Positions 27,364 through 43,376 of a stretch of 48,689 nt of DNA are shown piece after piece. The stretch lies in the NCBI GenBank assembly GCA_949388605.1, contig CASKJV010000014.1, forward strand, positions 1-48,689, in the 5' to 3' direction. The position numbers and the translations under genes were made by a program. Each line of letters starts with the position of its first letter. Position 1 is the stretch's first letter. This DNA comes from an uncultured Clostridia bacterium (lineage in GTDB: Bacteria; Bacillota; Clostridia; TANB77; CAG-508). The notes beneath the pieces are model-generated. The model worked only from the letters and a program-made list of their open reading frames with translations. It had not been told where the DNA came from and did no database searches.

Positions 27364-27383
27364 AATACATCACCCACTTTTAA

Positions 27384-27773: not shown

Positions 27774-27801
27774 ATTTTTTCTCCTTTCATATTACAAGAT
27801 T

Positions 27802-28191: not shown

Positions 28192-28228
28192 TTTTTCCTC
28201 CTAAACACGTTTTTATCTATTTACTCAT

Positions 28229-28257
28229 ATTATAACATTTTTCGATAATACTTTCAA
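28229..28257 (-). promoter_or_regulatory. Promoter of the five-pilin array
   Basis: TTGAAA (28252-28257), 17 bases, TATAAT (28229-28234) on the minus strand. Confidence 0.72.
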
Positions 28258-28295
28258 TATTTTTATATTAACCTATAATTTTCTATTTGTAAATA

Positions 28296-28340
28296 AAAAA
28301 ATAAAAAAGAGTATTGAAAAATTATATATATCAATACTCT
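28296..28340 (-). terminator. Terminator of stand-alone pilin gene
   Basis: A perfect 10-bp stem AGAGTATTGA (28308-28317)/TCAATACTCT (28331-28340) is followed on the minus strand by an A/T run read as TTTTTTATTTTTT. It separates the pilin at 28350 from the array promoter. Confidence 0.8.
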
Positions 28341-28349
28341 AAAACTTAA

Positions 28350-28739
28350 TTATTCATTATTAATGTTTTTTGTCGCAAATTTTCTTATTATTGCAAGGAT
28401 TCCTGAACCTGAAAACAATATGATAGCTCCAACTATATATACTGTTGCGCTTTTTTTAATATCCGCTTTATCTCCTGGAGCAGCCGACATATATTTAATT
28501 GCTAATACTATTATCATTATAACAGCAACTCCTGAAGCAACAACTTGTATAATTGTTAATAAGGATTGAACAATTTTTAACATACTTTTTCCAGTTCCCG
28601 AATTATCCTTTGCATCTTTTAATATAAAATCCGGATCTATTGTTGAATAAGAAGCAGATGAAATTATATTATATGTATAAATAAGAAATATAGACAATAA
28701 TAAAATTATTAAAGCTTTTTTTAGTATTTTTTTATTCAT
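28350..28739 (-). CDS. VirB2/TrbC-like pilin-type protein 2 (stand-alone unit)
   Basis: 129 residues from the ATG at 28739. This start is chosen because AAGGAG lies 7 bases upstream; a longer in-frame reading would begin before the promoter-proximal region. Signal peptide to about 28, mature start TIDPDFILKDAKDNSGTGK, and two membrane segments joined by LAIKYMSAAPGDKADIKK. It ends AIIRKFATKNINNE. It has its own promoter (28774-28802) and a strong terminator, so its level can be set apart from the array. It is most like the pilin at 41024. Confidence 0.87.
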   Translation of the reverse strand: MNKKILKKALIILLLSIFLIYTYNIISSASYSTIDPDFILKDAKDNSGTGKSMLKIVQSLLTIIQVVASGVAVIMIIVLAIKYMSAAPGDKADIKKSATVYIVGAIILFSGSGILAIIRKFATKNINNE

Positions 28740-28773
28740 ATACATTCTCCTTATATTTGGTTCTCTTTTATTC

Positions 28774-28802
28774 ATTGTATATCTTTTTTCGTTTTTTGTA
28801 AA
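28774..28802 (-). promoter_or_regulatory. Promoter of stand-alone pilin (28350)
   Basis: TTTACA (28797-28802), 17 bases, TACAAT (28774-28779) on the minus strand, about 35 bases before the ATG at 28739. Confidence 0.62.
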
Positions 28803-28849
28803 CATCTATTTTTCAATAATTAAGTATTAAAATTCTAAATCTATTAAAA

Positions 28850-29779
28850 TTAAAAATTAATTCTTTTTTCTTCAATTACTAATGGTCTGTGTTTTACTCT
28901 TTCATTAATTGCCATTATATATTCTCCTAAAAACCCTATAAAAAATAGTTGAATTGCTCCTAAAAAGAATGTTCCTATTAGCATTGGGGCTAAACCAGCA
29001 CTAAATCTATCCCAATATAATAGTTTTAAGACAAGATATACTACACCTATTATAAAACTAAGAATTGAAACTATAATTCCTCCAAAAGTTGCTAAGCGCA
29101 AACCAAATTTTGTATATGAAGTAAAACTAAGCATTGCATAATCAAATAATGTATATAAATTGTTTTTTGTTTTACCACTTTTTCTCTTTCTTTGAGTATA
29201 TTTAATTTCTTTTCTTTCATATCCTAACTCTGCAACAATTCCTCTAAAAAATGGTGTAGGATCGTCTAAATTTCTTAATATATCTATAAATTCTTTATCA
29301 TATAGCCCAAAACCAGTAAATTGTTCTATTTGTGAAACTTCTGATATCTTTTTTAATAATTTATAATAACATTTTCTAAAAAAATATATAATTGGATTTT
29401 CTTTACTTTTAGATTTTATTCCAACTACAATTTTATAACCATTTTCCCACTCTTTTACAAATTTAGGTATCATTTCAACTGGATCTTGAAAATCAGCACA
29501 CATAGATATAGTACAATCACCAGTTGTTTGCAGTAATCCATAATATGGTGATTTATATTGCCCAAAATTTCTAACATTAAATATCGCTTTTATATTTTTA
29601 TTATTTTTACACATTTCACTTAAAATTAATCTTGTTTTGTCTGTTGAATGATTATCTATAAATACTATTTCATATGTATATGTTTTTAATTTTTCCATTT
29701 CTTTTATAATTGCTTGTGCAATTTCTTTAATATTTCCCTCTTCATTATAGCAAGGAATTAAAACACTTATTTTTTTCAT
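28850..29779 (-). CDS. Polyprenyl-phosphate glycosyltransferase (GT2, GtrB/ArnC-like)
   Basis: 309 residues. The GT2 catalytic domain (1-220) opens ISVLIPCYNEEGNI and has FIDNHSTDKT and the metal-binding region MCADFQDP. The RKRKSGKTKNNLY segment before the membrane is typical of the DPM1/GtrB group. Two C-terminal membrane segments follow (about 232-255 and 262-290). This architecture transfers one sugar from an NDP-sugar to undecaprenyl phosphate on the cytoplasmic side. As the last gene of the sugar operon, with a GT-C-like protein at its head, it suggests an extracytoplasmic single-sugar decoration system. The donor is unknown; the CDP-deoxysugar made by the operon is the natural candidate. 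Confidence 0.88.
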   Translation of the reverse strand: MKKISVLIPCYNEEGNIKEIAQAIIKEMEKLKTYTYEIVFIDNHSTDKTRLILSEMCKNNKNIKAIFNVRNFGQYKSPYYGLLQTTGDCTISMCADFQDPVEMIPKFVKEWENGYKIVVGIKSKSKENPIIYFFRKCYYKLLKKISEVSQIEQFTGFGLYDKEFIDILRNLDDPTPFFRGIVAELGYERKEIKYTQRKRKSGKTKNNLYTLFDYAMLSFTSYTKFGLRLATFGGIIVSILSFIIGVVYLVLKLLYWDRFSAGLAPMLIGTFFLGAIQLFFIGFLGEYIMAINERVKHRPLVIEEKRINF

Positions 29780-29804
29780 ACTTAATAATATAACTTTTCC
29801 TTTC

Positions 29805-31001
29805 TTATAAATTATATAATTTTATAATTTTATTTTTAGGTATAATATTTTCAATCGAATTACATATAGCTTTTTCCGATGAATATGAAGATATAATTAT
29901 TTTATCAACAATTCCTAATTCTATATCTTCTTTTTTAAAATTTGAAATTTTAATATTCAAAATTTCTTTTCCTTGTTTTTTTACATCAGAATCGTAAATT
30001 CGAACTATATTTTTATTTTTTAAATTAGTCATTGCTAGTAATCTTGATGTATGATTTCCTGCTCCCCATATAGCAAGTTTCTCATCATCTTTAATTTCAT
30101 CTATTTTTTTTCTAATTTCATTTAATATATTTTCAGAGTCTTCTATATATCTTCTTACATTATCTATAGTATTATCTATTATTTTTTTCTTCTCATATTT
30201 AATATTTTCATCATCTATTTTCCATAAAGTCATTATTGCTGGTGTACCAGCTGCAACATAGCAATTTAAATAAAATTCTATACGTGCATTTATTAAATGA
30301 AATCCTGATTTATACATAAGATTTTGTAATGATGCAAAAGTAAAATAATTAACATGTTCATCGGAAAACATTCCAAAATTTTCATCACTAAATTTATAAT
30401 CAAATGTTGGAACATCTATAAAAATATATTTATTTGCAAATTTTTTCACTTTTTCTATAAATTCCATTGGATTTACAATGTGTTCAAGAATATGAGAAAG
30501 AAAAATCAAATCAAATTTATCTTGTACTTTTTTTTCTTTTAAATAATTTTCAAATGTATCTGCATATATTTCTATATCATAATTTTTTTTTGAAGTTTCC
30601 TTATTATAATTAGATGGTTCTATTCCAAAAACCTTTTTTCCTTCTTTTTTATATAAACTTAAGTTATACCCTGAAGCTGCTCCAATTTCAAAAACAGAAT
30701 TTATTTTTTCTTTACAATTTTCTTCTATAAAATGTTTCTGAATATTACTTCTTATAACATAATCTTGCTTTTCTATAAAGTTAATCTTTTCTTCATCAAA
30801 TTCGTATTTTGATAAATATTTATATCTTTTTTCTAAATCATCTCCTGAAAATGGATTTGCATTAAATAAAAAACTACAATTTGAACAATATCCAATCTTT
30901 TCTTCATAATAATCTTTCATTCCTATTAATCCACAAAAAGGAATTTTATATATAATATCTATATTTTTTCCACAAATTGAACATTTTTTTATTTCATTCA
31001 T
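29805..31001 (-). CDS. SAM-dependent C-methyltransferase-like protein with zinc-binding N-terminus
   Basis: 398 residues from the ATG at 31001 (GGAG 7 bases upstream; an in-frame GTG four codons earlier overlaps that site). The N-terminal Cys region (CSICG, CSNCSFLF) matches the zinc-binding domain of NDP-hexose C-methyltransferases. A Rossmann SAM domain has VFEIGAASGYNLSLYK and LIFLSHILEHIVNP. The C-terminal part (LAIWGAGNHTSRLLAMT) is the third domain of that family. TylC3-like enzymes put a methyl on a ketosugar carbon. In this operon the substrate would be a CDP-4-keto-deoxyhexose or a product of it. Domain order is convincing; substrate is inferred. Confidence 0.82.
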   Translation of the reverse strand: MNEIKKCSICGKNIDIIYKIPFCGLIGMKDYYEEKIGYCSNCSFLFNANPFSGDDLEKRYKYLSKYEFDEEKINFIEKQDYVIRSNIQKHFIEENCKEKINSVFEIGAASGYNLSLYKKEGKKVFGIEPSNYNKETSKKNYDIEIYADTFENYLKEKKVQDKFDLIFLSHILEHIVNPMEFIEKVKKFANKYIFIDVPTFDYKFSDENFGMFSDEHVNYFTFASLQNLMYKSGFHLINARIEFYLNCYVAAGTPAIMTLWKIDDENIKYEKKKIIDNTIDNVRRYIEDSENILNEIRKKIDEIKDDEKLAIWGAGNHTSRLLAMTNLKNKNIVRIYDSDVKKQGKEILNIKISNFKKEDIELGIVDKIIISSYSSEKAICNSIENIIPKNKIIKLYNL

Positions 31002-31019
31002 TATATTCTCCACATTAAA

Positions 31020-31934
31020 TTAATACTTATTTTTATACCACTCTATTGTTTCTTCTATTCCTTTTTGAAAACCAATTTTAGGTTCAAATCCTGTATCATT
31101 TATTAATTCAGTTATATCTACTGATAAATTCATAACTTGCTTTTCACTATATGGAATTTTTCCAAAATTTAAATGTATATCTGAATTAATAGCAGTTTTT
31201 ATAATTTCTATAAATTCATATAATTTTTTAGTTTTTCCATTTGCAATACAATAAACTTTATTATTTATTCCTTTTTCTCCAAGTAAAAATAGTGCTTCTA
31301 TTGCATCTTTAGAATATAAATAATTCCAATTTTGTTCTCCTAATGTATAATCTGGTGACATTCCGTTTAACATCTCTCTTATACTTGTCATTATCATTGT
31401 ATTTTCACCATCATATGGACCATAAACACTAAATACTCTTGTCCAAATATGTTTTATTTCAAGACTATTTGCAAGTTCTCTACTTTTAATTCCTGCTAGT
31501 AATTTTGCTTTTCCATATTCTGTTTCTGGATTAGTTTCTGTTTTGGAATTAATTATGCCATCAACTCTACCATATTCAGCTTGAGAACCAGCACCTATAA
31601 ATGTATTACATCCCAGTCTTTTAGCCAATTTAACTGCATCTAATGTATATTCTACATTTAATTCTTGTTTTTCTATTTGATTTCTATCATTTCCAAATGT
31701 CCCATCCCATCCAAAATGATAAAAAACATCATATTTTGACTCTTTAATTTCAAGGTTCTTTAAATTTTCTAAATTGCATTCAATAATTTTAAGATTTTTA
31801 TTTTCTTTTAGATTTTTCCTTCTTTTGGAGTTCTCCCTAATAATTGCTAATACTTCAATATCTTTCGAAAGTAAATATTCAATAAGAGTAACTCCAATCA
31901 TTCCTGTTGCACCTGTTACAACTACTTTTTTCAT
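31020..31934 (-). CDS. NAD-dependent epimerase/dehydratase (extended SDR)
   Basis: 304 residues from the ATG at 31934. An in-frame TTG four codons earlier overlaps the preceding stop, but GAGG is best placed for the ATG. The Rossmann motif is KVVVTGATGMIGVTLIEYL, with the SDR catalytic TEYGKAK (YxxxK) at about 145 and AGSQAEYG before it. NDP-sugar 4-epimerases, reductases and dehydratases share this form. In a yersiniose-type pathway a reductase is needed after the ThDP enzyme, and this is a candidate; that is inference from context. Confidence 0.85.
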   Translation of the reverse strand: MKKVVVTGATGMIGVTLIEYLLSKDIEVLAIIRENSKRRKNLKENKNLKIIECNLENLKNLEIKESKYDVFYHFGWDGTFGNDRNQIEKQELNVEYTLDAVKLAKRLGCNTFIGAGSQAEYGRVDGIINSKTETNPETEYGKAKLLAGIKSRELANSLEIKHIWTRVFSVYGPYDGENTMIMTSIREMLNGMSPDYTLGEQNWNYLYSKDAIEALFLLGEKGINNKVYCIANGKTKKLYEFIEIIKTAINSDIHLNFGKIPYSEKQVMNLSVDITELINDTGFEPKIGFQKGIEETIEWYKNKY

Positions 31935-31942
31935 ATAATACC

Positions 31943-32605
31943 TCAATTTACAATATAATCATATATATCTTTAGCTTCTTTTGCAACAAATTTTACAATT
32001 TCACTATTTTTATCTTCTTCTTTTCCTTGTCCCCATTCAACAAAAATAGCATCAATTCCTGCATTTTCAGCAGTTTTTACATCACTTAGCCCATCACCAA
32101 TATACACTGCATCTTTTTTATCTAGATTTGTATATTTTAAAATATCATAAACAGCTGTTGGATTAGGTTTTGAAGGATAATCGTTTACATAGCCAATAAT
32201 TTTTTCAAATTTTATATCATAGAAAAATTTCTTACATAATTCTTCTGTTAGAATTTGTTTTTTATTTGTATTTATTGCAAGTAGAATTCTTTTATCCTGT
32301 AGTTTTTTTAATAATTCTATTATTCCATCATATGGTTTTGTGTTTTCTTTTTTACAATTTAAATATAAGTTTGAATAATATTGTTTTATATCATTTATAT
32401 TTTTCTTTGTTGATATTTTGGTTTGATTATACTTTAATAATTTTTCAATTACAATTTCCAAATTTCCACCAACAAAATTATTATATAATTCTATTGGATG
32501 TGCATTATATCCAAATTTTTCAAGACTTTTATTAAAGCAAATTGCAACATCAGTTATAGTATTCATTAATGTTCCATCAAAATCAAATATACATATTTTT
32601 TTCAT
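31943..32605 (-). CDS. HAD-family phosphatase (PGP/Gph-like)
   Basis: 220 residues with HAD motif I DFDGTLMNT (8-16), a helical cap, motif II INTNKK (about 113), motif III Lys in PSKPNP, and motif IV IGDGLSDVKTAENAG (about 170). It resembles phosphoglycolate phosphatase-like enzymes; the substrate is unknown. Its TGA stop overlaps the ribosome binding region of the SDR gene downstream, so the two are translationally coupled. It lies in the sugar operon and may remove phosphate from a sugar intermediate or clear a side product. Confidence 0.85.
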   Translation of the reverse strand: MKKICIFDFDGTLMNTITDVAICFNKSLEKFGYNAHPIELYNNFVGGNLEIVIEKLLKYNQTKISTKKNINDIKQYYSNLYLNCKKENTKPYDGIIELLKKLQDKRILLAINTNKKQILTEELCKKFFYDIKFEKIIGYVNDYPSKPNPTAVYDILKYTNLDKKDAVYIGDGLSDVKTAENAGIDAIFVEWGQGKEEDKNSEIVKFVAKEAKDIYDYIVN

Positions 32606-32649
32606 ATTATTTCACTCAATTCTTTATATATCTAAGTTAATTTAATTAA

Positions 32650-34464
32650 TTAATTAATCTTAGACACTTCTTTTTTTATAGTTTCATATTCATCTTGCGG
32701 TAAAAACGGAAACATATCGTCAAGTTCTGGCGATTGCATAGTTCCATCTGGTAAAACTTTTGAAGAAAGCTTTGGCTCAAAATTTTGGTTTTCGTCTAAA
32801 ATAACTTCACAAATAATTGGACCTTCTACATTTAGAACTTCTGCTATTTGGCTATTAATATTTTGAATATTATCTATTCTTTTAAATTTTACTCCATAAG
32901 CATATGCAATTTTTCCCATATCTGGAAAACTAATTCCGTTTTCTTTGCAAACTCCCACTAATGGTGGATTAAATAAATTATTTTGTGTTTGTCTTATTGA
33001 ATGATATCCATTATTATTTAAAATAAATATTTTCAAATTTAAATTATTATGTACTACAGTTTGTAACTCTTGAATATTCATTTGAAAACTTCCATCTCCA
33101 TCTAAGCAAACTACTCTATCTCCTTTGGAAGCAACTGTAGCGCCTATTGATGCAGGAAATCCATATCCCATAGCTGCACATCCTGAATTAGTAAATAATC
33201 TTTGACCTTCTTTTATCTTTGCTCCTTGAAATCCTATTACGCATGCACTACCGTTTCCAACAATAATTTTATCATTTTCTTGTAATTCATCAAATAATTT
33301 ATCTATAAATACATATGGATTTACTGAAGTAGTTTTTTTATAATACTTTTCAAGTACTACTGGATATTTAGTATTTATATTCCTGCACCAATTTAACCAT
33401 TTTATATGTGTTTCATTTCCTTGATAATCCACTTTTAATAATGAGTTAATTACATCTCTTAAATTTGCATGAATAGGCATGTCAACTGATATTGTAGGTT
33501 TTTTTAATTCATTTTCATCTATATCTATAATTATTTTATATGCATTTTTAGCAAAACTTTTATAATTATAACTAATCATTCTTATATTTAATCTACATCC
33601 AATTGAAATTAATAAATCACTATTTTGTACAACAAAGTTTCCACCTCTTGTCCCGACAGTTCCTGGTTTTCCAACAAATAATGGATTATCGTCTGTAAGA
33701 ACATCATGTGCATTCCAAGCAGTTACTACTGGGATTTTCAATTTTTCTATTAATTTTACAAATTCATTATGACTATTAGCTAATCTAATTCCTGTCCCTG
33801 CTAAAATTACTGGTCTCTTAGATGTTCTTATCTTTTCTAAAATTAAATTAGTATACTTTTCATCATATATTGGATTTTCTTTTTCTTCTAATCCCTCTTC
33901 AATAGGATTAAATTCTTTTAAATTATCGATTTCTATAATTGCAGATTGTACATCTATTGGAATGTCCAACCATACTGGCCCTGGTCTACCATTTGTTGCT
34001 AAATATAAAGCTTTTTCTAAATGATATCTTATATTTTCTGGAGTCTTTACCATAACTGAATATTTAGTCATAGTTGACACACAATCTACTATATTGAATT
34101 CTTGATCTCCTAATTGTCTTAATTTAACATCAGTAAAGGCTATTGTAGTTTCTCTTTTAACTTGTCCAGAAATTACAAACATTGGTATAGAATCAACCCA
34201 AGCTCCATATACTCCTGTAATTGCATTAGTTCCACCAGGTCCAGTTGTAACGCATACTGCTGATAGCTTATTAGTTAATCTTGTATATCCTTCTGCTGCA
34301 ATACTACAAGCTTGTTCATGATGATTATATACACAATTTAGTCCAGTTTTATGTCCAAAACTATCATTTAAATGCATTGCTCCTCCACCAGTTACTGTGA
34401 ACATATCCACTATTCCATTATCTACCAAAAAATTGGCAACATAATCTGATAATTTAATTTTCAT
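32650..34464 (-). CDS. ThDP-dependent acetolactate synthase-like enzyme (YerE-type candidate)
   Basis: 604 residues. The N-terminal Pyr domain has the activating Glu in YNHHEQACSIAAEGY (about 50) and GPGGTNAITG. The middle domain (about 190-330) contains PVILAGTGIRLA. The C-terminal PP domain has the ThDP/Mg motif GDGSFQMN (about 456) followed by ILNNNGYHS. The family makes two-carbon additions from pyruvate. Beside RfbF/G/H genes, such enzymes (YerE of yersiniose synthesis) attach an acetyl branch to C4 of a CDP-3,6-dideoxy-4-ketosugar. Ordinary acetolactate synthase is possible but unlikely here: no small subunit or ilv genes are present and all neighbours are sugar genes. A gap of 117 bases upstream breaks the tight operon spacing. 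Confidence 0.82.
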   Translation of the reverse strand: MKIKLSDYVANFLVDNGIVDMFTVTGGGAMHLNDSFGHKTGLNCVYNHHEQACSIAAEGYTRLTNKLSAVCVTTGPGGTNAITGVYGAWVDSIPMFVISGQVKRETTIAFTDVKLRQLGDQEFNIVDCVSTMTKYSVMVKTPENIRYHLEKALYLATNGRPGPVWLDIPIDVQSAIIEIDNLKEFNPIEEGLEEKENPIYDEKYTNLILEKIRTSKRPVILAGTGIRLANSHNEFVKLIEKLKIPVVTAWNAHDVLTDDNPLFVGKPGTVGTRGGNFVVQNSDLLISIGCRLNIRMISYNYKSFAKNAYKIIIDIDENELKKPTISVDMPIHANLRDVINSLLKVDYQGNETHIKWLNWCRNINTKYPVVLEKYYKKTTSVNPYVFIDKLFDELQENDKIIVGNGSACVIGFQGAKIKEGQRLFTNSGCAAMGYGFPASIGATVASKGDRVVCLDGDGSFQMNIQELQTVVHNNLNLKIFILNNNGYHSIRQTQNNLFNPPLVGVCKENGISFPDMGKIAYAYGVKFKRIDNIQNINSQIAEVLNVEGPIICEVILDENQNFEPKLSSKVLPDGTMQSPELDDMFPFLPQDEYETIKKEVSKIN

Positions 34465-34582
34465 TTTTAATATTATACTAGAGTTCTCTAATACATTCCT
34501 TTAATATATTTAGGTTTTTTATATAAGGTTTTACCTATAAACCAAATAATATATAAATATAATATTTTTTCTTTAAAATTTG

Positions 34583-35212
34583 TTATTTTACTCTCTCAAT
34601 AAAATCTCTTGCCATTTCTGTTGTTTTTTCATAATCTCCATTCTTAGCTGGATTTATAATTTCTCCACCAACTCCAATTGCAATAGCTCCATTTTTAATC
34701 CACTTATCCGAATCTTCTAATGAAATATTTCCTGTCGGAATAATTTGAATATATGGAAACGGTCCTCTAAATACTTTTATAATTTCTGGACCATAAGCAT
34801 TTCTTGGAAATAATTTTACAATATCTGCACCATGTTCCATAGCATTATTTGCTTCTGTTGGTGTGGCAATTCCAGGTATCATTAGTACTCTATATCTATT
34901 ACATAGTTTCATTAAATCTTTATTAAAAATAGGGCTTACTATAAATTCTGCTCCTGCACTTATTACAAATCTTGCTGTTTCTGCATCTAATACAGTTCCA
35001 GCTCCAATTACAACATCTGTATTCTTGTATTTTTGGGCTAAGTTTTCTATTATTCTAATAGCATTTGGAACTGTCATTGTTATTTCAATTAAATGTACTC
35101 CTCCTGCAACTACTGCACTAACTATTTTCTCTATCTCTTCTTCATTTTCACTTCTCACTACAGAAATAACCTTTTCATTTTTTATTTTTTGAATTATATC
35201 TATCTTATCCAT
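34583..35212 (-). CDS. KDPG/KHG-type aldolase (class I, pyruvate-forming)
   Basis: 209 residues, the normal length for KDPG/KHG aldolase. The catalytic Glu is in LIEITMTVP (about 43) and the Schiff-base Lys is in DIVKLFPRNAYGP (about 130), with GAGTVLD and IPTGNISLED also present. It cleaves 2-keto-3-deoxy sugar acids to pyruvate plus an aldehyde, or runs in reverse. No KDG kinase or uronate genes are near. Its place in the sugar operon suggests either pyruvate supply to the ThDP enzyme or a pyruvate-based chain extension. Fold and active site are sure; physiological role is not. Confidence 0.9.
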   Translation of the reverse strand: MDKIDIIQKIKNEKVISVVRSENEEEIEKIVSAVVAGGVHLIEITMTVPNAIRIIENLAQKYKNTDVVIGAGTVLDAETARFVISAGAEFIVSPIFNKDLMKLCNRYRVLMIPGIATPTEANNAMEHGADIVKLFPRNAYGPEIIKVFRGPFPYIQIIPTGNISLEDSDKWIKNGAIAIGVGGEIINPAKNGDYEKTTEMARDFIERVK

Positions 35213-35234
35213 ATTTACCTCCTATATATTTAGT

Positions 35235-36089
35235 TTAAATACAATATATTACTGTATCTGCTTCATTTATACCATGTTGTCTTAAGTAAATTTTATACTC
35301 TGGAATAAGTTTATGTATATATTCTATGATATCTATCATATCGTTATCACTATGATAAATGCATATTGCTAATTTAGGTTTATTTTTCAATATTATATTT
35401 TCTGCTCCTTTTAAGCATTCTAACTCTGAACCTTCTATATCCATTTTTATAAATGTGGATTTTTCGCATTCTTTAACACTATCTAAATTAACTACTTTAA
35501 TAGTATTATTTCCCTCATCACAAATTGATGAGCCACCTCGGTTTCCTGAATTAAATTTTAATGTTCCATTTTTTATCCATGTTCCATAAGGAAAACAATA
35601 AATTCTTTCATATTTCTTTGCAAATTTTTTTAACTTTTCAAAATTATATTTATCTGGTTCAAAAGCAACAATTCCATCATAATTATAATTACTTTCTAGT
35701 AAAAACTTTTCTACTGTGTCACCAATATATGCTCCACAATCTATAAAAGTTTCATTACTATTTAACTTAATTATATCTGTAGGAAAATATATATTTTCAA
35801 AATTATAACATGGGAAATCTTTTCTTTTTCTTTTACATCTATATAATATCATTTTTTTGTAAATCTCTTTTGATTCTTCATCTTCCAAAATATTTATATT
35901 TTTTTCTATTCTTTCTTTATTTTCGTTAAAAAATTTTTTTCTTTTTTCTAAATAATCTTTACTGCAAATTCTGTAAACAAAATCTCCAATACCTATTTCT
36001 ATAGCAAAATATATTAGTTTTCTTGTAATTATATTTTTTTCGCATTTATCAAAAACTTTATTAAAAATACTATTTCTTAGTCCATTCAT
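35235..36089 (-). CDS. FkbM-family methyltransferase
   Basis: 284 residues. After a Lys-rich N-terminal region of about 100 residues comes a FkbM-type SAM domain: ETFIDCGAYIGDTVEKF, IVAFEPDKYNFEKLKKF and FIKMDIEGSELECLKGAENI, then ICIYHSDNDMIDI. These enzymes usually O-methylate sugars or lipids in surface-glycan clusters. Start ATG at 36089. It is 22 bases upstream of the aldolase gene in the same operon. The acceptor is probably the cluster's deoxysugar or its glycoside. Confidence 0.85.
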   Translation of the reverse strand: MNGLRNSIFNKVFDKCEKNIITRKLIYFAIEIGIGDFVYRICSKDYLEKRKKFFNENKERIEKNINILEDEESKEIYKKMILYRCKRKRKDFPCYNFENIYFPTDIIKLNSNETFIDCGAYIGDTVEKFLLESNYNYDGIVAFEPDKYNFEKLKKFAKKYERIYCFPYGTWIKNGTLKFNSGNRGGSSICDEGNNTIKVVNLDSVKECEKSTFIKMDIEGSELECLKGAENIILKNKPKLAICIYHSDNDMIDIIEYIHKLIPEYKIYLRQHGINEADTVIYCI

Positions 36090-36126
36090 GCTTTCTCAAT
36101 ACTCCATTTCTTCATATAAAGAAAAT

Positions 36127-37464
36127 CTACATTGTACATTTTTTTATTTTTTCTATCATATAATCTATCATTCCATCTGTCATTCCTGGATAAACACCTA
36201 TCCAAAAACTATTATTCATTATAATATCTGTATTTTTTAATTCTCCTACTACTCTATATCCAGATTTATTTTCTCTCATTTCATTAAAGCAAGGATGCTT
36301 GATAATATTTCCAGCGAATAAATTACGAGTTTGTATTCCGCAGTTTTCTAGTGATTTAACAACTTTATTTCTGTTTACTCCTTCTTTACACGTAATTAGA
36401 AATCCAAACCAACTTGGAATAGAATTTTCTGTTGCCTCTGGCAAAGTTAATTTATCAGCACAATCTTTTAATTCCTCTTTTAATCTATTAAAATTTTCTT
36501 GTCTTCTTTTTGAAAAATATTCTATTTTTTCAAATTGTGCACATCCTATTGCAGCTTGCATATCTGTTGCTTTTAAATTATATCCGAAATGTGAATATAC
36601 ATATTTATGGTCATATCCTACTGGCAGTTCTCCAAATTGACCATCAAATCTATGTCCACACAAATTGTCTACTCCTGATGGACAACTACATTCTCTGCCC
36701 CAGTCTCTAAAAGAACGCATTATTTTATGTAATAATGTATTGTTTGTATATACAGCTCCACCTTCTCCCATCGTCATATGGTGTGGTGGATAAAAGCTTG
36801 AAGTCCCAATATCTCCAATAGTTCCTGTAAATTTTTCTTCTCCATTAATTATATATTTACTTCCCAATGCATCACAATTATCTTCTATTAACCATAAATT
36901 ATTTTTATCACAGAATTCTTTTACTTTTTTTAAATTAAAAGGGTTTCCTAAAGTATGAGCAATCATAACTGCTTTTGTTTTATCTGATAGCGCTTTTTCT
37001 AGCATATTACAGTTAATATTATACTCTGGAATTGTAACATCTACAAAAACTGGTATTGCACCATACTGTACTATTGGTGAAATTGTCGTAGGAAAACCTG
37101 TAGCAACTGTGATTACTTCGTCACCACGTTTAATTGATCTTTCTTTTAGAAGTGGTGAGGTTAAACTCATAAATGCTATTAAGTTTGCAGAAGATCCTGA
37201 ATTAACTAAACTACAATATTTTACATTTAAAAATTCGGCAAATTTTTCTTCAAATTCTTTAGTATATCTTCCTGATGTAAGCCAAAATTCTAAAGAACTA
37301 TCTACTAAATTAACCATTTCTGATGAATCATATACTCTAGATGAATATGCAATTTTATCTCCATCTTTAAATTCTTTTTTTACATTATGATATTTATTAC
37401 AATATTCTTTTACTATATCTAATATTTCACTTCTTGCTTCTTGTTCTGATTTATTTTCAAACAT
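36127..37464 (-). CDS. rfbH: CDP-6-deoxy-D-xylo-4-hexulose-3-dehydrase (E1, RfbH)
   Basis: 445 residues from the third of three in-frame ATGs, which has AGGAG at 7 bases; the TAG of rfbG overlaps that site. It has an aminotransferase-like fold. The usual PLP Lys is replaced by His in SSFYPPHHMTMGEGG (about 226), and a Cys cluster CSCPSGVDNLC (CxCx7C, about 255-265) with an upstream Cys in EDNCDALG marks the iron-sulfur, PMP-dependent C3 dehydrase E1. It removes the C3 hydroxyl of CDP-4-keto-6-deoxyglucose and needs a reductase partner (E3), which is not in the window. All diagnostic residues are present. Confidence 0.95.
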   Translation of the reverse strand: MFENKSEQEARSEILDIVKEYCNKYHNVKKEFKDGDKIAYSSRVYDSSEMVNLVDSSLEFWLTSGRYTKEFEEKFAEFLNVKYCSLVNSGSSANLIAFMSLTSPLLKERSIKRGDEVITVATGFPTTISPIVQYGAIPVFVDVTIPEYNINCNMLEKALSDKTKAVMIAHTLGNPFNLKKVKEFCDKNNLWLIEDNCDALGSKYIINGEEKFTGTIGDIGTSSFYPPHHMTMGEGGAVYTNNTLLHKIMRSFRDWGRECSCPSGVDNLCGHRFDGQFGELPVGYDHKYVYSHFGYNLKATDMQAAIGCAQFEKIEYFSKRRQENFNRLKEELKDCADKLTLPEATENSIPSWFGFLITCKEGVNRNKVVKSLENCGIQTRNLFAGNIIKHPCFNEMRENKSGYRVVGELKNTDIIMNNSFWIGVYPGMTDGMIDYMIEKIKKCTM

Positions 37465-37474
37465 CATCATTCTC

Positions 37475-38515
37475 CTATTGATTCAAATACTCTCTAATTT
37501 GTTTTTGCATACATTCTTCTAACTTTTCTTTATTACACTTTTCAAATTCAACAATTTTCTCAACAGTTTTTTCTATATTCCAAATAGGATTCCAATTAAA
37601 TCTTTTCTTTATTTCTTCACAATTTAGTTTTAAATAATTACTTTCAAATGGCCCATTATCGGTTTGATTTATATAGTTAATATTTTTCCATTTATTACAA
37701 AATAGCTCAACCAGCACTTCAGTTCTTACAATATTTTCTTCATTAGGTCCTATATTATAGTTTCCAATATATCTTTCATCACTATATTGCTTTTCAACAA
37801 TCATTAAATATGCAAACAAAGCTTCTAAAACATGTTGATATGGCCTTACTGAATTAGGATTTCTGATTATTATGTCTTTATTTTCTTTTGCAAATTTTAC
37901 ACAATCTGGTATAATCCTATCTTGTGCTATATCCCCACCACCAATAACATTTCCAGCTCTAGCAGTAGAAATTCTAACTCTATTATCTGAAAAATATGAC
38001 TTTTTATAAGAATCTGTAACTAATTCTGAACAAGATTTGCTGTTTGAGTATGGGTCATATCCATTAAGTCTATCTGTCTCTCTATAAGCACAATCTGTTT
38101 CTTTATTTTCATACACTTTATCTGTTGTTACATTTAAAAATGATTTTACACAATTACTTGTTCTTATACACTCTAGTATATTAACAGTTCCAATAACATT
38201 AGTTTCATAAGTATACACTGGCATTTCATATGCTTTTCTAACTATTGGTTGTGCTGCTAAATGTATTACTATCTCTGGATTAAACTCATTAAATTCCTTT
38301 TTCAAATTTTCTAAATTTCTAATATCTCCATAAACTGAATCCATTTTTCTAGCTAAATTGATTTTTTTAAACAAAGAATCTTCTTCTGGTTTTAATGCAT
38401 ACCCTTTTACAATAGCACCTATATCAATTAAAATTTTGCACAACCACGTTCCTTTAAAACCTGTATGTCCAGTTATAAAAATCTTTTTATCTTTAAAAAA
38501 CTCTAAATTTACCAT
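37475..38515 (-). CDS. rfbG: CDP-glucose 4,6-dehydratase (RfbG)
   Basis: 346 residues from the ATG at 38515, five bases after the rfbF stop. A longer frame starting inside rfbF is less likely. SDR fold with KIFITGHTGFKGTWLCK at the N-terminus, VTTDKVYENKE, catalytic YDPYSNSKSCSE (YxxxK, about 150) and RAGNVIGGGD. It converts CDP-glucose to CDP-4-keto-6-deoxyglucose, the substrate of RfbH. Family assignment is firm because rfbF and rfbH flank it in the classical order. Confidence 0.95.
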   Translation of the reverse strand: MVNLEFFKDKKIFITGHTGFKGTWLCKILIDIGAIVKGYALKPEEDSLFKKINLARKMDSVYGDIRNLENLKKEFNEFNPEIVIHLAAQPIVRKAYEMPVYTYETNVIGTVNILECIRTSNCVKSFLNVTTDKVYENKETDCAYRETDRLNGYDPYSNSKSCSELVTDSYKKSYFSDNRVRISTARAGNVIGGGDIAQDRIIPDCVKFAKENKDIIIRNPNSVRPYQHVLEALFAYLMIVEKQYSDERYIGNYNIGPNEENIVRTEVLVELFCNKWKNINYINQTDNGPFESNYLKLNCEEIKKRFNWNPIWNIEKTVEKIVEFEKCNKEKLEECMQKQIREYLNQ

Positions 38516-38519
38516 AATT

Positions 38520-39299
38520 TTAATCTTTCCATCTTTTCCATTTTGCATTTCCAGAATTCCACATTTCTTCTAATTGTCTTTTATCTCTTTGTGTATCCAT
38601 TCCAAACCAAAAACCTTTATGATTATATGCTGAAAGTTCTCCTTTTTTAGCCAATTTTGTTAAAACTTCTTCAAGCATTATATTATCAGAGTCCTCTGGT
38701 AAAAAATCGAATATCTCTGGATTAAACACCATATATCCTGAATTTATTAAGCTTCCATCTTGAGACTTTTTTTCTCTAAATTCTGTAACATTGTTATTTT
38801 CGTCAACATCTATAACTCCAAATCTTTGTCCAAAATAATATGAAGTTATTGTTGCAACTTTTCCATGCGACTTATGAAATTCTAATAATTCTTTTATATT
38901 TATATCACTTACACCATCACCATATGTAACAAAAAAAGGCTCATTTTTTACATATTCTTTTATTCTTTTTATTCTTCCTGCTGTTAAAGTATTTATCCCT
39001 GTGTCTACAAGTGTCACTTTCCAATTTTCACAATTATTACTATGTGTTATCATTTTATTTTCTTTAAAATCAAATGTAACATCTGATGTATGTAAATAAT
39101 AATCGTTAAAATATTCTTTAATTTTATATCCTTTATATCCTAAGCAAATAACAAATTCTTCTACTCCATAATAAGAATATTCTTTCATTATATGCCATAA
39201 AATTGGCTGTTCTCCTATTTCTATCATTGGTTTAGGTTTTAAATATGATTCTTCTGAAATTCTTGTTCCCAAACCACCTGCTAAAATTACACTTTTCAT
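38520..39299 (-). CDS. rfbF: Glucose-1-phosphate cytidylyltransferase (RfbF)
   Basis: 259 residues, full length. It has the nucleotidyltransferase signature LAGGLGTRISEESYLKPKPM at the N-terminus, FVTYGDGVSDI (metal-binding GDG) at about 105, and SGYMVFNPEIFDFL. It makes CDP-glucose from glucose-1-phosphate and CTP, the entry step of the CDP-dideoxysugar route. It is the first sugar-nucleotide gene of the operon, 15 bases after the GT-C-like gene. Confidence 0.96.
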   Translation of the reverse strand: MKSVILAGGLGTRISEESYLKPKPMIEIGEQPILWHIMKEYSYYGVEEFVICLGYKGYKIKEYFNDYYLHTSDVTFDFKENKMITHSNNCENWKVTLVDTGINTLTAGRIKRIKEYVKNEPFFVTYGDGVSDINIKELLEFHKSHGKVATITSYYFGQRFGVIDVDENNNVTEFREKKSQDGSLINSGYMVFNPEIFDFLPEDSDNIMLEEVLTKLAKKGELSAYNHKGFWFGMDTQRDKRQLEEMWNSGNAKWKRWKD

Positions 39300-39313
39300 T
39301 ATTATTCTTCCTT

Positions 39314-40849
39314 TTACTTTGCTATATATTTAAAAAATATTGAATTTTCTTTTGGATTTTTAGTTACAAAATTTGATGAAACATCTTCTAAATTTGAGTA
39401 TGTTTTTGTTTTATCGTATACTAAATTAATTTTTCCAGTTTGAGCTATACAATAAAATGCTCTACCATATTCACATATTGGAGTTACTAATCCAATACAT
39501 AAGACAATAGTTAATAATATTACTTCCACAGCTTTTTCTTTCTTATTTTTACTTATATTTAAATATTCTCTAACAATCAATAAATTTATAATAAGTATTA
39601 ATGGTATTGATACTCTCATTGAGAAATCATATTCATACCCTAATTGAAATAAAGGAATTATTAGTAATGAAATCATTATTGTATAAAATAATGGATTTTT
39701 CTTATGAGTTTTAAATAAAAATAATCCATATATGCCAATTTCTAAAAACCAAAAAATGAAAAGTTTTAATAATTCAAATGGAGTAATCAGTTCTAACATA
39801 AATGAAAATCCTCCACCATCTGAATTTCCAGAAGTTGATGCATTTCCAGAATAAAAACAAGCATATATTGGTAATATTGAAATAAGTGCTAAAATGTTTT
39901 GCATTGAAAATACATCTTTTACAAATTTTACTTTTTCTTTATTTTTTATTGAATTTATTAAAAATTTTATACCATTACATGCAAATATTATTACAAGTCC
40001 TATAAAAGGTAATGGGGCAAAAGGTAAAGCCAATAAAATTAAAACTAAATAATTGTTAACTCTTTTTTCTTCTAAAAACATTAAAGTTATAATCCAAATT
40101 GGTATGCTTTGGTTAAATACCCAAAACAATTGAGTAATCATAGAACTAAACTGATATACTACAGCCCACCACTCTAAATGTATTCTATTTAAAAATACAC
40201 TAAATGTTCCAAATATTGACATTCCTAAAATATCTAGTCCACTAAAAAATAAAAAAATAAATATTGCTTTACATATACTTTTCTTTTCTTTTAGTCTTAA
40301 TATTTTAATTAACCATAAAACAGCTAATAATACTCCAATAGAATTCCATATAAGCAACGCTATATTACCTATATAAAAAGAATATTCTATTGCTGTATAA
40401 TTTATAATTTTAGTTATTGTATTAGGAATCAATTTATTTATAATATTTGCTATAAAAACAATTGATTTTCCAATAATACTTGGTACCATCCATTGCCCAA
40501 TATAATATGTAAGTGCAGAATTGGATTGTTCGTAATATACTGGCCAATCTAATTTTATTAGGTCTCTAAAAATAGCATTTCTTGCATCCCAATCTGGACT
40601 TTGATAAAATACTCCTCCATGTCCTGCTGTTATACATATTAGTACTACAAATAACAAAATTGGTAATATATATTTTGAATTTATTATTTCTGTATTCTCT
40701 TTTGATTTATTATATAATAATTTTAAAATTACTAATAAACATATTGTTATTGGTATAGAAAATACAATTTTTATCCACCCCATAATGAATATTATTACAG
40801 GTATTATTAAATATAAATATGAAATTAATTTTAATTTTCTATCTGTCAT
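39314..40849 (-). CDS. Polytopic GT-C-like membrane protein
   Basis: 511 residues with roughly 12 membrane segments. The first large extracytoplasmic loop contains GGVFYQSPDWDARNAIFRD, with an acidic DWD motif of the kind that holds the catalytic Asp in GT-C glycosyltransferases; the Wzy polymerase alternative is less likely. A short C-terminal soluble tail follows the last span. It is the first gene of the sugar operon, with GAGG upstream of the ATG and a near-consensus promoter 43 bases away. It is the probable extracytoplasmic transferase using the lipid-linked sugar made by the GT2 at 28850. The fold class is fairly likely; the acceptor is unknown. Confidence 0.7.
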   Translation of the reverse strand: MTDRKLKLISYLYLIIPVIIFIMGWIKIVFSIPITICLLVILKLLYNKSKENTEIINSKYILPILLFVVLICITAGHGGVFYQSPDWDARNAIFRDLIKLDWPVYYEQSNSALTYYIGQWMVPSIIGKSIVFIANIINKLIPNTITKIINYTAIEYSFYIGNIALLIWNSIGVLLAVLWLIKILRLKEKKSICKAIFIFLFFSGLDILGMSIFGTFSVFLNRIHLEWWAVVYQFSSMITQLFWVFNQSIPIWIITLMFLEEKRVNNYLVLILLALPFAPLPFIGLVIIFACNGIKFLINSIKNKEKVKFVKDVFSMQNILALISILPIYACFYSGNASTSGNSDGGGFSFMLELITPFELLKLFIFWFLEIGIYGLFLFKTHKKNPLFYTIMISLLIIPLFQLGYEYDFSMRVSIPLILIINLLIVREYLNISKNKKEKAVEVILLTIVLCIGLVTPICEYGRAFYCIAQTGKINLVYDKTKTYSNLEDVSSNFVTKNPKENSIFFKYIAK

Positions 40850-40891
40850 TTATGCAACCTCAATATATTTATAATTCATTCAATTGCAAAC

Positions 40892-40933
40892 ATTATATAA
40901 AGAAAATATCCTTTTGTAAATAGCAAAAGGATA
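40892..40933 (-). promoter_or_regulatory. Promoter of the sugar operon with overlapping inverted repeat
   Basis: TTTACA (40915-40920), 17 bases, TATAAT (40892-40897) on the minus strand. A perfect 10-bp inverted repeat, TATCCTTTTG (40907-40916)/CAAAAGGATA (40924-40933), has the -35 box in its 7-base centre. It could be an operator. Because TTTTCTTT follows it on the minus strand, it could also be a second terminator for the pilin upstream. Confidence 0.65.
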
Positions 40934-40965
40934 CAATTTGACATTTGTTCAGTTCATTTTTATAC

Positions 40966-40999
40966 AAAAAAGAAATACAGTAAACTGCATTTCTTTTTT
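40966..40999 (-). terminator. Terminator of stand-alone pilin (41024)
   Basis: A long stem AAAAAAGAAAT-a-CAGT/ACTG-c-ATTTCTTTTTT, with A and T tracts at both ends so it can act in either direction. It lies 25 bases past the pilin stop. Confidence 0.78.
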
Positions 41000-41023
41000 A
41001 ACTTATTTTGAATTGTATTATTG

Positions 41024-41422
41024 TTATTCATCAGCGTGAACATTACCTGCAAAGTTTCTAACAATACTTATGATACCTGTAGCAGCAAATAATACAACTG
41101 CACCAACTATATATACTACAGCATGTTTTTTAATTTCAGCTTTATCGCTAGGAGCTGCTGAAATATATTTAATAGCTAAAATTATTAACATAATTACAGC
41201 TACACCAGAACCAACAACTTGTACAACTGTTAAAAGTGAACCAATAATTCTATTAACACTTGCAGCTGCTCCTGAATTATCTACTGCACCATTTTTTACA
41301 TAGTCTTCATTGATTTGATTGAAAGAAACTGATTGTGCTGCAAATACAGTTGAATTAAGTATTGTTACTGTCATAATTGCGATTAAAAGTAATGCAACTA
41401 CTTTTATTACATTTCTTTTCAT
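41024..41422 (-). CDS. VirB2/TrbC-like pilin-type protein 1 (stand-alone, probably major)
   Basis: 132 residues: a signal peptide to about 29 (TVFAAQ), mature start SVSFNQINEDYVKNGAVDNSG, and two membrane segments joined by LAIKYISAAPSDKAEIKK. The second segment reads VYIVGAVVLFAATGII. It ends FAGNVHADE. AAAGGAGG stands at ideal spacing and a TTGAAA-17-TATAAT promoter and strong terminator bracket it. It has the best expression signals of all eight pilins. It sits upstream of the sugar operon, 12.3 kb from the nearest other pilin. Confidence 0.87.
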   Translation of the reverse strand: MKRNVIKVVALLLIAIMTVTILNSTVFAAQSVSFNQINEDYVKNGAVDNSGAAASVNRIIGSLLTVVQVVGSGVAVIMLIILAIKYISAAPSDKAEIKKHAVVYIVGAVVLFAATGIISIVRNFAGNVHADE

Positions 41423-41458
41423 AATAAAATCCTCCTTTTATTTACCATACTTAAATAT

Positions 41459-41487
41459 ATTATATACTTTTTTTAGTTTTTTTTCAA
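41459..41487 (-). promoter_or_regulatory. Promoter of stand-alone pilin (41024)
   Basis: TTGAAA (41482-41487), 17 bases, TATAAT (41459-41464) on the minus strand, about 35 bases before the ATG at 41422. Confidence 0.72.
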
Positions 41488-41669
41488 CATTTTTTAGTAT
41501 ATTTTATCAATTAAATTAATATTAACATATATTTTTTCCTTTGTAAACACTTTTTGTTTTATTTTGTTATTCAAAATTTTTCGAATTAAGTCTTTATTTT
41601 TGATAATCACTCTTTTTATTTTATATCCATATTTTTTAATTATTTTATATTTTTTGAATTATATAATCA

Positions 41670-41698
41670 TTTACTTCTAAAAATATAGATGATATAAT
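41670..41698 (+). promoter_or_regulatory. Promoter of the GT-C-like gene at 41745
   Basis: TTTACT (41670-41675), 17 bases, TATAAT (41693-41698) on the plus strand. The gap 41423-41744 holds this promoter, the divergent pilin promoter and a translation-initiation hairpin; nothing else is seen. Confidence 0.6.
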
Positions 41699-41720
41699 TT
41701 TACAAAATATACTATAAAAA

Positions 41721-41744
41721 GGAGGATGTTAGTTTTACTAACAA
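41721..41744 (+). promoter_or_regulatory. Ribosome site with hairpin between SD and start
   Basis: GGAGG (41721-41725) lies 19 bases from the ATG at 41745, too far for normal use. A hairpin GTTAG-TTTTA-CTAAC (41728-41742) fills the gap and, if folded, leaves an effective spacing of 4 bases. An ATG right after GGAGG is out of frame and too close. Confidence 0.45.
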
Positions 41745-43376
41745 ATGTTTATGAAAAATTTCTCAAAAAAAACACTTATCGTTTTTTCAATAATTATTGC
41801 AATTTTTATAATTGGAATAGTACCAAAAGAATTTCAAAATGATACTTTTTTTAACATATCAATTGGAAAATATATATTAGAAAATGGAATTGACATGCAA
41901 GAGCATTGGGCATTTACAGAAGGATTGACTTATACTTTTTCTCATTGGGCTTTCGATATTCTAACTTATTTAATTTATAATGTATTTAATTTTACAGGAA
42001 TTTACAATTTTACAATAATTCTGTCTATTTTAACTTATATTACCTTATTTTACTGTTTGTATAAAAGAAGTAATAAACCATTAATTTCATTAGTATTAGT
42101 TTTATTATTTTCATATTATTTAAGAAATTCTCTTACAGCGCGTTCACAAATAATTTCTTTCATTTGCTTTATTATTGAAATATATTGTATTGAACAATTT
42201 ATAGATACTAATAAAAAAAGATACGCTATTATATTATTAATTCTATCAATATTAATTGCTAATTTTCATGCTGCGACTTGGCCATTGTTCTTAATACTAT
42301 TTATGCCTTATTTAGGTGCGGCATTTTTTAACTTCTTTAGTCCAAAAAACCTTTTTAAAAAATTTATAAAACGTGATGAAGAGAAATTAAAAAATTTGCC
42401 TAAAGATTCTAAAAAATATAATTACTATAAACAAGATCTTGAAATTTATACTAGACTTCAAAAAAAGGAAGAAAATAAGAAAAGTTTAAAAATTGTAATA
42501 AAAGAAATCTATAATACTCAAAATTTAGTTATTCTTTTAATAATTATTGCTTTTTCAGGTTTACTAACACCAATACATGGAACACCCTATACTTATATAA
42601 TAAAATCTATGATTGGATACAGTAATTTTGAAGATGTTAAATCAATGGCATATATCGCAGAAATGCAGCCCATAGTTCCTATAGCTCATGAATCTATGAT
42701 ATTTTTCGCTCTTATATTTTTAGCATTTTTAATCTTTTTTCCTACAAAGATTAAACTTGAACATCTTTTTCTCTTTTTAGGTTTACTATACATGACTTTA
42801 TCTAGTGTAAGATATTTATATCTTCTTGTACCTTTAGGATGTTATATATTATGTGATCTAATTTCACAAACTTCAGATATATATTTAGAAAAAGAAATGC
42901 CTATATTAGAAAAAATACTTGTTCATCCTATTTCAATAATAATTTGTACTATTATCACTTGTATTTTTACAGCACATAACCTAAAATCTACCGAAGACAT
43001 TAAACTTGTTAATGAAGAATTATATCCTACTAATGCTGTTAACTATATAAAAGAAAATTTAGATTATAAAAATATACGAATTTATAATTCTTATGATTTT
43101 GGAAGCTATTTAATGCTTAATGATATACCTGTTTTTATCGATTCTAGACTAGATGTCTATTGCAGTGAATTTAATAATACTGATATTTTTTATGATTTTA
43201 TAAATGTATGTAATGGAAATGTTCATTATGATGAAATATTTGAAAAATATAATTTTACTCATATTTTATTATATGATGATGAAATAATTAATATATATAT
43301 CAAAAAAGATTCTAATTATAATTTAATTTATGAAGATGATAATTTTTCATTATATGAGAGAAAATCACATTCTTAA
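41745..43376 (+). CDS. Polytopic GT-C-like glycosyltransferase candidate
   Basis: 543 residues with about ten membrane segments. The first extracytoplasmic loop carries FQNDTFFNISIGKYILENG with an Asp at about residue 34 where GT-C enzymes keep the catalytic acid, followed by AFTEGLTYTFSHWAFDIL. A cytoplasmic Lys-rich loop lies at about 200-245. The C-terminal extracytoplasmic domain contains YNSYDFGSYLMLNDIPVFID and SRLDVY, a pattern common in such membrane proteins. A second ATG two codons in (41751) is possible. It is divergent from the pilin at 41024, and its own promoter is present. It is a possible second transferase for surface or pilin glycosylation; substrate unknown. Confidence 0.7.
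   Translation: MFMKNFSKKTLIVFSIIIAIFIIGIVPKEFQNDTFFNISIGKYILENGIDMQEHWAFTEGLTYTFSHWAFDILTYLIYNVFNFTGIYNFTIILSILTYITLFYCLYKRSNKPLISLVLVLLFSYYLRNSLTARSQIISFICFIIEIYCIEQFIDTNKKRYAIILLILSILIANFHAATWPLFLILFMPYLGAAFFNFFSPKNLFKKFIKRDEEKLKNLPKDSKKYNYYKQDLEIYTRLQKKEENKKSLKIVIKEIYNTQNLVILLIIIAFSGLLTPIHGTPYTYIIKSMIGYSNFEDVKSMAYIAEMQPIVPIAHESMIFFALIFLAFLIFFPTKIKLEHLFLFLGLLYMTLSSVRYLYLLVPLGCYILCDLISQTSDIYLEKEMPILEKILVHPISIIICTIITCIFTAHNLKSTEDIKLVNEELYPTNAVNYIKENLDYKNIRIYNSYDFGSYLMLNDIPVFIDSRLDVYCSEFNNTDIFYDFINVCNGNVHYDEIFEKYNFTHILLYDDEIINIYIKKDSNYNLIYEDDNFSLYERKSHS

Follow-up and report, generated by a model that had tools for sequence, protein, structure and literature searches.

We analysed a 48,689-nt contig of an uncultured Clostridia bacterium (CASKJV010000014.1 of assembly GCA_949388605.1, positions 1 to 48,689 of the forward strand), referred to here as the window, in which an 11-gene operon on the minus strand (28850–40849) is sandwiched by tandem genes for VirB2-like pilins of a type IV secretion system (T4SS). 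An earlier note on this DNA had read the arrangement as a system that glycosylates the pilus with a branched dideoxysugar. From its head, the operon encodes a polytopic GT-C-like glycosyltransferase (GTC1), RfbF, RfbG, RfbH, an FkbM-type methyltransferase, a 2-keto-3-deoxy-6-phosphogluconate (KDPG)-type aldolase, a YerE-like thiamine diphosphate (ThDP)-dependent enzyme, a HAD phosphatase, a short-chain dehydrogenase/reductase (SDR), a sugar C-methyltransferase and a GtrB/ArnC-like glycosyltransferase of family 2 (GT2). Internal stops are absent from all 11 reading frames, and the intergenic gaps range from −29 to 118 nt.

On the left, the operon is flanked by seven pilin genes (pil1–pil7; 25579–28805, minus strand; PF18895/TrbC matches) and on the right by one (pil8; 41024–41422, minus strand; PF18895 over cut-off). 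All eight called pilins have three hydrophobic segments. Diverging from pil8 is a second GT-C-like gene, GTC2 (41745–43376, plus strand), assigned by structure match as STT3-like. The source genome (G000, 2.1 Mb; the window is its contig C14) has PF18895 (T4SS_pilin) matches at 10 places, 5 of them over cut-off. It is 97% complete with 6.4% contamination; we ruled out assembly contamination as the cause of the arrangement, since a single contig holds the operon together with the pilins to its left and right. Every gene that the earlier note had named was in its place, with T4SS_pilin/TrbC-type pilins on both flanks, and Pfam confirmed the ThDP enzyme, the SDR, both methyltransferases and GT2. 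The HAD phosphatase and the aldolase had escaped that note.

The position of the operon became clear from the closest relative found (G161; VirB4 96% identical). The window's two flanking pilins align best with neighbouring G161 pilins that are 118 nt apart (pil8 is 67% identical to the last pilin of G161), and the window therefore holds ∼12 kb extra. Nucleotide matches to G161 break off near the end of pil8 and start again within pil7. Between the two pilins of G161 we read a hairpin with a T run, followed by a promoter-like stretch. The pil8/GTC1 gap of the window has, by consensus scan, a terminator-like hairpin (−11.5 kcal/mol) downstream of pil8 and, overlapping it, a promoter-like TTTACA-17-TATAAT before GTC1 (together 40892–40934, minus strand; promoter-like part 40920–40892), matches that are not in themselves evidence of function. 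Another promoter-like site (28802–28774) falls within the called N-terminus of pil7 (28350–28805, minus strand), whose called start may be too far upstream. These sites suggest separate transcription of the operon and a start of pil7 further in. Terminator-like sites numbered 4, compared with 2.0 (sd 1.5) in shuffled sequence; the scan listed none separating GT2 from pil7, which transcripts of the operon may therefore reach by read-through. As for insertion scars, scanning each flank on its own returned only short, mostly A+T-rich within-flank repeats.

A predicted route to a surface-bound branched sugar

The operon enzymes predict a cytidine diphosphate (CDP)-linked 4-C-branched 3,6-dideoxyhexose, and surface glycosylation with one such sugar, as the earlier note had it, is well supported as a prediction from sequence. 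RfbF (glucose-1-phosphate cytidylyltransferase; 38520–39299; TIGR02623, 372 bits), RfbG (CDP-glucose 4,6-dehydratase; 37475–38548; TIGR02622, 410 bits) and the RfbH/E1-type 3-dehydrase (36127–37470; NF011936, 720 bits) all pass their equivalog cut-offs (300, 278 and 423 bits, respectively); like all operon genes, they are on the minus strand. Together they would make CDP-4-keto-3,6-dideoxyglucose. Against the E1 structures 3bcx and 3bb8, RfbH scores 522 and 518 bits. Its PPHH aligns with PAHH of E1, so that the His–His motif is kept; three of the four nearby E1 cysteines are also kept and the third is replaced by valine, which preserves the iron–sulfur signature only in part. We take the active-site histidine to stand in for the lysine of aminotransferases, and the cysteines to be iron–sulfur ligands.

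From pyruvate and an aldehyde, KDPG/KHG aldolases form 4-hydroxy-2-oxo acids. The operon's aldolase (34583–35212; PF01081; NF005119, 269 bits, cut-off 238) and its HAD phosphatase (31943–32605; phosphoglycolate-phosphatase-like; PF13419; NF009695, 130 bits, below the cut-off of 225) would together provide such an acid. The ThDP enzyme (32650–34464), a YerE-like carboligase, would decarboxylate it and join the leftover acyl group to C4 of the sugar. Among Protein Data Bank (PDB) chains, this enzyme matches JanthE best (8rph; PMC12188165) with 394 bits, against 247 bits for the best acetolactate synthase, making a plain acetolactate synthase unlikely; it has the motifs GDG at residue 456 and HHEQ at 48. 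YerE and ErwE use CDP-4-keto-3,6-dideoxyglucose as acceptor, and ErwE prefers 4-hydroxy-2-oxo acid donors (PMC12247030). The aldolase probably supplies the ThDP enzyme with a donor of this kind, because PF01081 is rare in the family (two of 117 genomes, G000 and G036, with the operon copy the sole one in G000) and the gene recurs between RfbH and the ThDP gene in the cassettes of two congeners (G118 and G124, neither of which is in the sample of 117). Within the genus, all three cassettes with GTC1 (G000, G118 and G124) contain it.

The remaining enzymes would finish the sugar. The SDR/epimerase-type protein (31020–31946; PF01370), with homologues in eight of 10 cassette loci compared, is proposed to reduce the ketone of the side chain, and the C-methyltransferase-like protein (29805–31013; over cut-off for PF13489 and narrowly below it for the C-terminal PF08484) and the FkbM-type protein (35235–36089; PF05050) may add methyl groups. 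At E 1e-15, neither methyltransferase was matched in any of 10 further cassette loci compared; for the C-methyltransferase a 38-bit match was seen in G144. A homologue of the HAD phosphatase is found in the G124 cassette.

GT2 (28850–29779; PF00535) carries two hydrophobic spans at its C-terminus, which begin at about residues 225 and 261, and its best PDB matches are GtrB sll0501 of Synechocystis (5ekp, 165 bits) and ArnC. Its sequence has the features of a GT-A enzyme with C-terminal spans and a predicted activity on polyprenyl phosphate (GtrB/ArnC/PgfS-like), to which it would pass the sugar. The best NCBIfam model is PgfS (NF047588), with a score (181 bits) far under the equivalog cut-off of 500, and we do not class the protein as PgfS. 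The earlier note had remarked that there is no flippase; this holds within the operon and not for the genome, where two PF04138 (GtrA) matches over cut-off lie elsewhere. One of these GtrA proteins would turn the lipid-linked sugar over. GTC1 (39314–40849), with 13 hydrophobic segments in a simple scan, is the proposed transferase on the outside; neither it nor GTC2 has a Pfam match.

Cassettes and pili in related genomes

The relatives of G000 are Clostridia metagenome-assembled genomes (MAGs), many of them from gut samples judging by record titles. We used family samples of 117 and 390 genomes, drawn from a larger group, and the congeners of G000 (the genus, below). RfbH was found in 8/117 and 12/390 family genomes. 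No pilin or T4SS match was present within the 15–20 kb fetched around seven of the 12 RfbH loci (G001, G024, G062, G065, G118, G124 and G144). As for the others, that of G000 lies between pilins, that of G004 and possibly that of G040 are near a T4SS, and those of G059 and G300 are counted in neither group. The earlier note had held that its idea would fall if the sugar cluster occurred as often without the pilin locus, which is largely what these loci look like.

Most of the cassette is found apart from pilin genes in two congeners. G124 has nine of the 11 genes (in the order GTC1-RfbF-RfbG-RfbH-aldolase-ThDP-HAD-SDR-GT2; 53, 71, 62, 85, 60, 70, 55, 66 and 73% identical to those of the window, respectively) with no pilins nearby, and at E 1e-100 VirB4 is unmatched in this genome (85% complete). 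The seven shared genes of G118 comprise GTC1-RfbF-RfbG-RfbH-aldolase-ThDP and, past open reading frames (ORFs) unlike the window's HAD and SDR genes, GT2, followed by a GT-C-like ORF; its VirB4 is on a different contig. Both congeners speak for the independence of the cassette from the pilus. GTC1 adjoins RfbF in G124, G118 and G065.

Six further cassettes of the family (G001, G004, G024, G040, G062 and G144) are like that of the window in having RfbF, RfbG, RfbH, an SDR and GT2 (70%–73% identical), although the SDR of G024 is split in two pieces. Unlike the window, they carry a GtrII-like GT-C (PF14264 in G001; homology in G040 and G144; by reading in G004, G024 and G062) and, except for G062, GtrA (by reading in G024), and they have no match to the aldolase, HAD or FkbM genes. 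A transketolase-like pair takes the place of the ThDP gene in G040 (by reading); for G065 such a pair was confirmed by Pfam.

If the cassette served the pilus, the two might be expected to co-occur, as the earlier note had anticipated. Using VirB4 as a marker (E 1e-80 in the sample of 117; E 1e-100 in the genus and the RfbH-positive genomes), the pilus was detected in 91/117 family genomes (hand count) and 39/53 genus genomes. RfbH-positive genomes were not enriched for it, with strong matches in 8/11 (hand count; G300 left out), a figure that includes G024 by a fragment and G144 with four internal stops; VirB4 was absent from G001, G065 and G124. Co-occurrence thus does not rise above the base rate.

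Conversely, we fetched 110 pilus loci from relatives and found no cassette genes there, save a 37-bit SDR match in L086; none was found in the 80 named pilus loci. A pilin was recognisable in 108. Beyond the last pilin, 90 loci were readable over 2 kb or more and 64 over 10 kb or more; absence says little for the 20 that had no pilin or <2 kb beyond it, where MAG contigs end. The scan used the window's proteins at E 1e-4, and unrelated sugar genes would escape it. Taken together, the base rate, the cassettes of congeners and the 110 pilus loci led us to reject a co-inherited unit of pilus and sugar genes as a conserved unit.

The acceptor and the rival readings

We consider the operon to be a self-contained, relocatable cassette that puts one unusual branched sugar on the cell surface, and give this reading a probability of roughly 60%. 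The cassette would have come to rest between neighbouring pilin genes, and GTC1 would move the sugar to an acceptor outside the cell, for which a cell-wall polymer or a general surface glycan is likelier than a pilin. The combination of GT2, GTC1 and a distant GtrA would fit, by analogy, the scheme for decoration of Gram-positive cell-wall polymers in PMC8035078, which describes multi-component glycosylation systems, one with a single GtrA-type flippase for three polymers.

Several observations weigh against this reading. The match of GTC1 to the GT-C fold is weak: for its AlphaFold2 model (predicted local distance difference test score [pLDDT] 76), the best Foldseek match was ALG12 at E 0.017, with none at E 0.001, and lower matches to oligosaccharyltransferase, PglB, AftA and ArnT (E 0.24 or worse) were interspersed with unrelated transporters. 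Homologues of GTC1 occur in 7/117 genomes, among which only G000 and G065 have RfbH; those in the five genomes without it are 27%–36% identical, and GTC1 is therefore not exclusive to the predicted sugar. Among the operon genes we recognised no partner reductase for RfbH (presumably E3); no search for one was made elsewhere in the genome. The link between aldolase and ThDP enzyme is not strict either: the congener G144 has a ThDP gene but lacks the aldolase, the ThDP enzymes of G118 (with aldolase) and G001 (without) are 54% and 55% identical to the window's, and ThDP proteins do not cluster by aldolase presence. Promoter-like sites in the window were no commoner than chance (139, with a shuffled mean of 132.8). 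Finally, two cassettes outside the window stand near pilus genes or may do so. That of G004 lies downstream of the T4SS locus, ∼7.5 kb beyond its last recognised gene and separated from it by four other ORFs. In G040, of the same genus as G004, the cassette and T4SS contigs both end in homologues of the same flanking gene; the pieces overlap, with 100% and 83% identity to the G004 gene, so that the join is not certain, and the cassette may be placed like that of G004 across a contig break.

Further opposing evidence concerns GT-C genes beside pilin arrays, and it bears on the proposal that the lipid-linked branched sugar is put on the neighbouring T4SS-like pilins by GTC1 or GTC2. Besides the place of the operon between two pilins and the G004 cassette near, if not directly beside, T4SS genes, this proposal draws on the genus loci, where the first gene past the last pilin was a GT-C in 10 of the 27 that could be read (hand count; 26 genomes, with G152 counted twice; six more loci ended too soon). 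Eight of the 10 belong to a family that we call GTC490 and two, including the window, to GTC2 (in two ORFs in G141). The fold of GTC2 also points this way, as the gene beside pil8 resembles most the protein-modifying STT3: the top five Foldseek matches of its AlphaFold2 model (pLDDT 79) were all chains of the oligosaccharyltransferase complex (E 1.5e-6 to 6.2e-5). Of the pair of GT-C-like genes seen in the earlier note, it is the one clearly matched by structure.

GTC490 lay within ∼20 kb of VirB4 in 15 of the 23 best family-sample copies (E 1e-100 or better) and 8/18 genus copies (hand counts), and these counts are partly circular, in that 13 of the 15 linked family copies and all eight genus ones were seeds of our alignment A1. 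Without the seeds, linkage fell to 2/10 and 0/10; it therefore rests on copies found by reading pilus loci. GTC2 homologues were found in 104/117 family genomes but were absent from all 78 pilus loci of a family set, and G000 has a second copy on another contig (G000:C30, L278), which led us to downgrade GTC2 as a pilus-specific transferase. The pilus-side copies of G119 and G121 are 56% and 54% identical to that of the window, and nine other aligned copies, including the second one of G000, 33%–40%. Adding the promoter- and terminator-like sites of the operon itself, the lack of enrichment for the pilus, the 110 loci without the cassette and the congeners that carry most of it away from pilins, one of them with no VirB4 match, we judge dedicated pilin glycosylation unlikely. 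Some link between pilus and glycosyl transfer is compatible with the counts. Pilus glycosylation is possible, yet not supported as a conserved function, and the pilus is probably not the main target of the cassette. A reading that is attractive from one window thus fails, across the survey, as a conserved system.

The GTC490 proteins themselves (∼490 aa, GT-C-like) diverge from the last pilin in L239, L241, L243, L253, L266, L267, L271 and L044, and in other genera are encoded a few genes away from it. PMT_2 was over cut-off in one member, and another had no Pfam match.

Unlikely too, in our estimate, is that the sugar modifies another surface protein in the manner of Pgf, such as exposed T4SS proteins or the protein encoded at 46036–48498, near the contig end, which is probably a cell-wall adhesin (it has seven stretches of MucBP repeats and, at its C-terminus, a hydrophobic span). 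PgfS is the best NCBIfam match of GT2, albeit at 181 bits for a cut-off of 500, and the pgf operon modifies the surface proteins Cnm and WapA (PMC5856776). Large ORFs resembling surface proteins adjoin GTC1 in two relatives (by reading): one of 1472 aa with a signal-like start in G065 (L272 14680–19098) and one of 509 aa with a type IV prepilin-like start in G124 (L283 3775–5304), both candidate acceptors. We give still less credence to a broader picture, in which a domesticated chromosomal T4SS-type pilus of gut Clostridia has its outer face decorated by exchangeable sugar modules, with GT-Cs at the array head in part of the genus and lineages swapping branched-dideoxysugar cassettes (here an erwiniose-like one with a dedicated aldolase) to vary the surface. 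Very improbable is a degenerate or silent insertion into the pilin array. Among the loci read, the cassette lies between pilins in one genome only, as such an accident would predict, but its 11 reading frames are intact, with the gaps given above, the RfbH and ThDP motifs are kept, and it holds two methyltransferase-like genes in addition to those with matches in 10 further cassette loci.

At the T4SS-near site, G004 (G004:C4; L127, L275) has an acetolactate-synthase-type ThDP gene where G040 (G040:C36/C6; L274, L276) has the transketolase-like pair (by reading). If the G040 contigs join, these two species of one genus may have alternative sugar cassettes at the same site, reminiscent of surface-type switching.

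The pilus locus and known systems

The T4SS-like machine of the window occupies 6776–25557 (minus strand). It includes a VirB4 ATPase (21928–23919, minus strand; PF19044), the N-terminal part of VirB4 as a separate protein (23941–25221, minus strand; by position and relatives), a PrgI-like protein with a profile match below cut-off, and several polytopic proteins taken as VirB6-like from their hydrophobic segments. Two overlapping ORFs (8319–10400 and 10291–10881) are maybe one polytopic protein in two frames; G161 likewise has several pieces there. Most sampled family genomes (loci L044–L121 and L239–L271) have a T4SS-like locus in the chromosome, with VirB2-like pilins in tandem (the window has eight) and split VirB4, often beside apparent housekeeping genes (such as RadA, MltG, FtsY, Lgt, FtsZ and M16 peptidases; names by reading). 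VirB4 has internal stops or matches in two pieces in G144, G146, G153, G139, G155, G134, G160, G127 and G140, as if the system were being lost. No relaxase was recognised in the window, where no search aimed at relaxases was made. Just past ArsC, the pilin flank of G029 (L044 7920–10026) has integrase-like and Mob-like genes (by reading), suggesting a site of element insertion.

Gram-positive T4SS classes are described as lacking VirB2 pilins (PMC12102498); this Clostridia family may depart from that rule in a way comparable to Patescibacteria. With regard to sugars on such pili, two archaeal conjugation pili show weak peripheral density "consistent with glycosylation", and the T-pilus gave no evidence of extensive glycosylation, according to PMC9905601.

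Among known systems, GtrABC-type decoration of teichoic acid or wall polysaccharide (PMC8035078) shares with the scheme predicted for the window a GT-A that loads polyprenyl phosphate, GtrA in the genome, a GT-C-like protein and the use of one sugar. The operon differs in carrying its own pathway for a CDP-branched dideoxyhexose, in having its flippase outside, and in that GTC1 lacks a Pfam match. With the Pgf operon of Streptococcus mutans (PMC5856776) the window shares a GT2 whose best NCBIfam model is PgfS; the score is far under the PgfS cut-off, and a different sugar is predicted.

We take the host gut Clostridia to be monoderm and devoid of lipopolysaccharide (LPS). Branched dideoxyhexoses of the YerE/ErwE type have been described mainly from LPS (PMC12247030), and if our reading is true, they would occur on the surface of gut Clostridia as well. 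The dedicated KDPG-type aldolase would then be a candidate source of the 4-hydroxy-2-oxo acid donors that ErwE prefers; pairing of an aldolase with a YerE/ErwE-type ThDP enzyme was not met in the available part of PMC12247030 or in a limited literature search, and no paper on caryophyllose was among those listed. The yersiniose A and erwiniose pathways (YerE, ErwE; PMC12247030) have in common with the window the predicted CDP-4-keto-3,6-dideoxyglucose acceptor, a YerE-like ThDP enzyme and an SDR. To these the window adds the aldolase, the HAD phosphatase, the C-methyltransferase and FkbM, a comparison made at the level of pathways rather than of the Yersinia and Pectobacterium gene clusters, and it has a predicted GtrB-type export of one sugar in place of O-antigen assembly.

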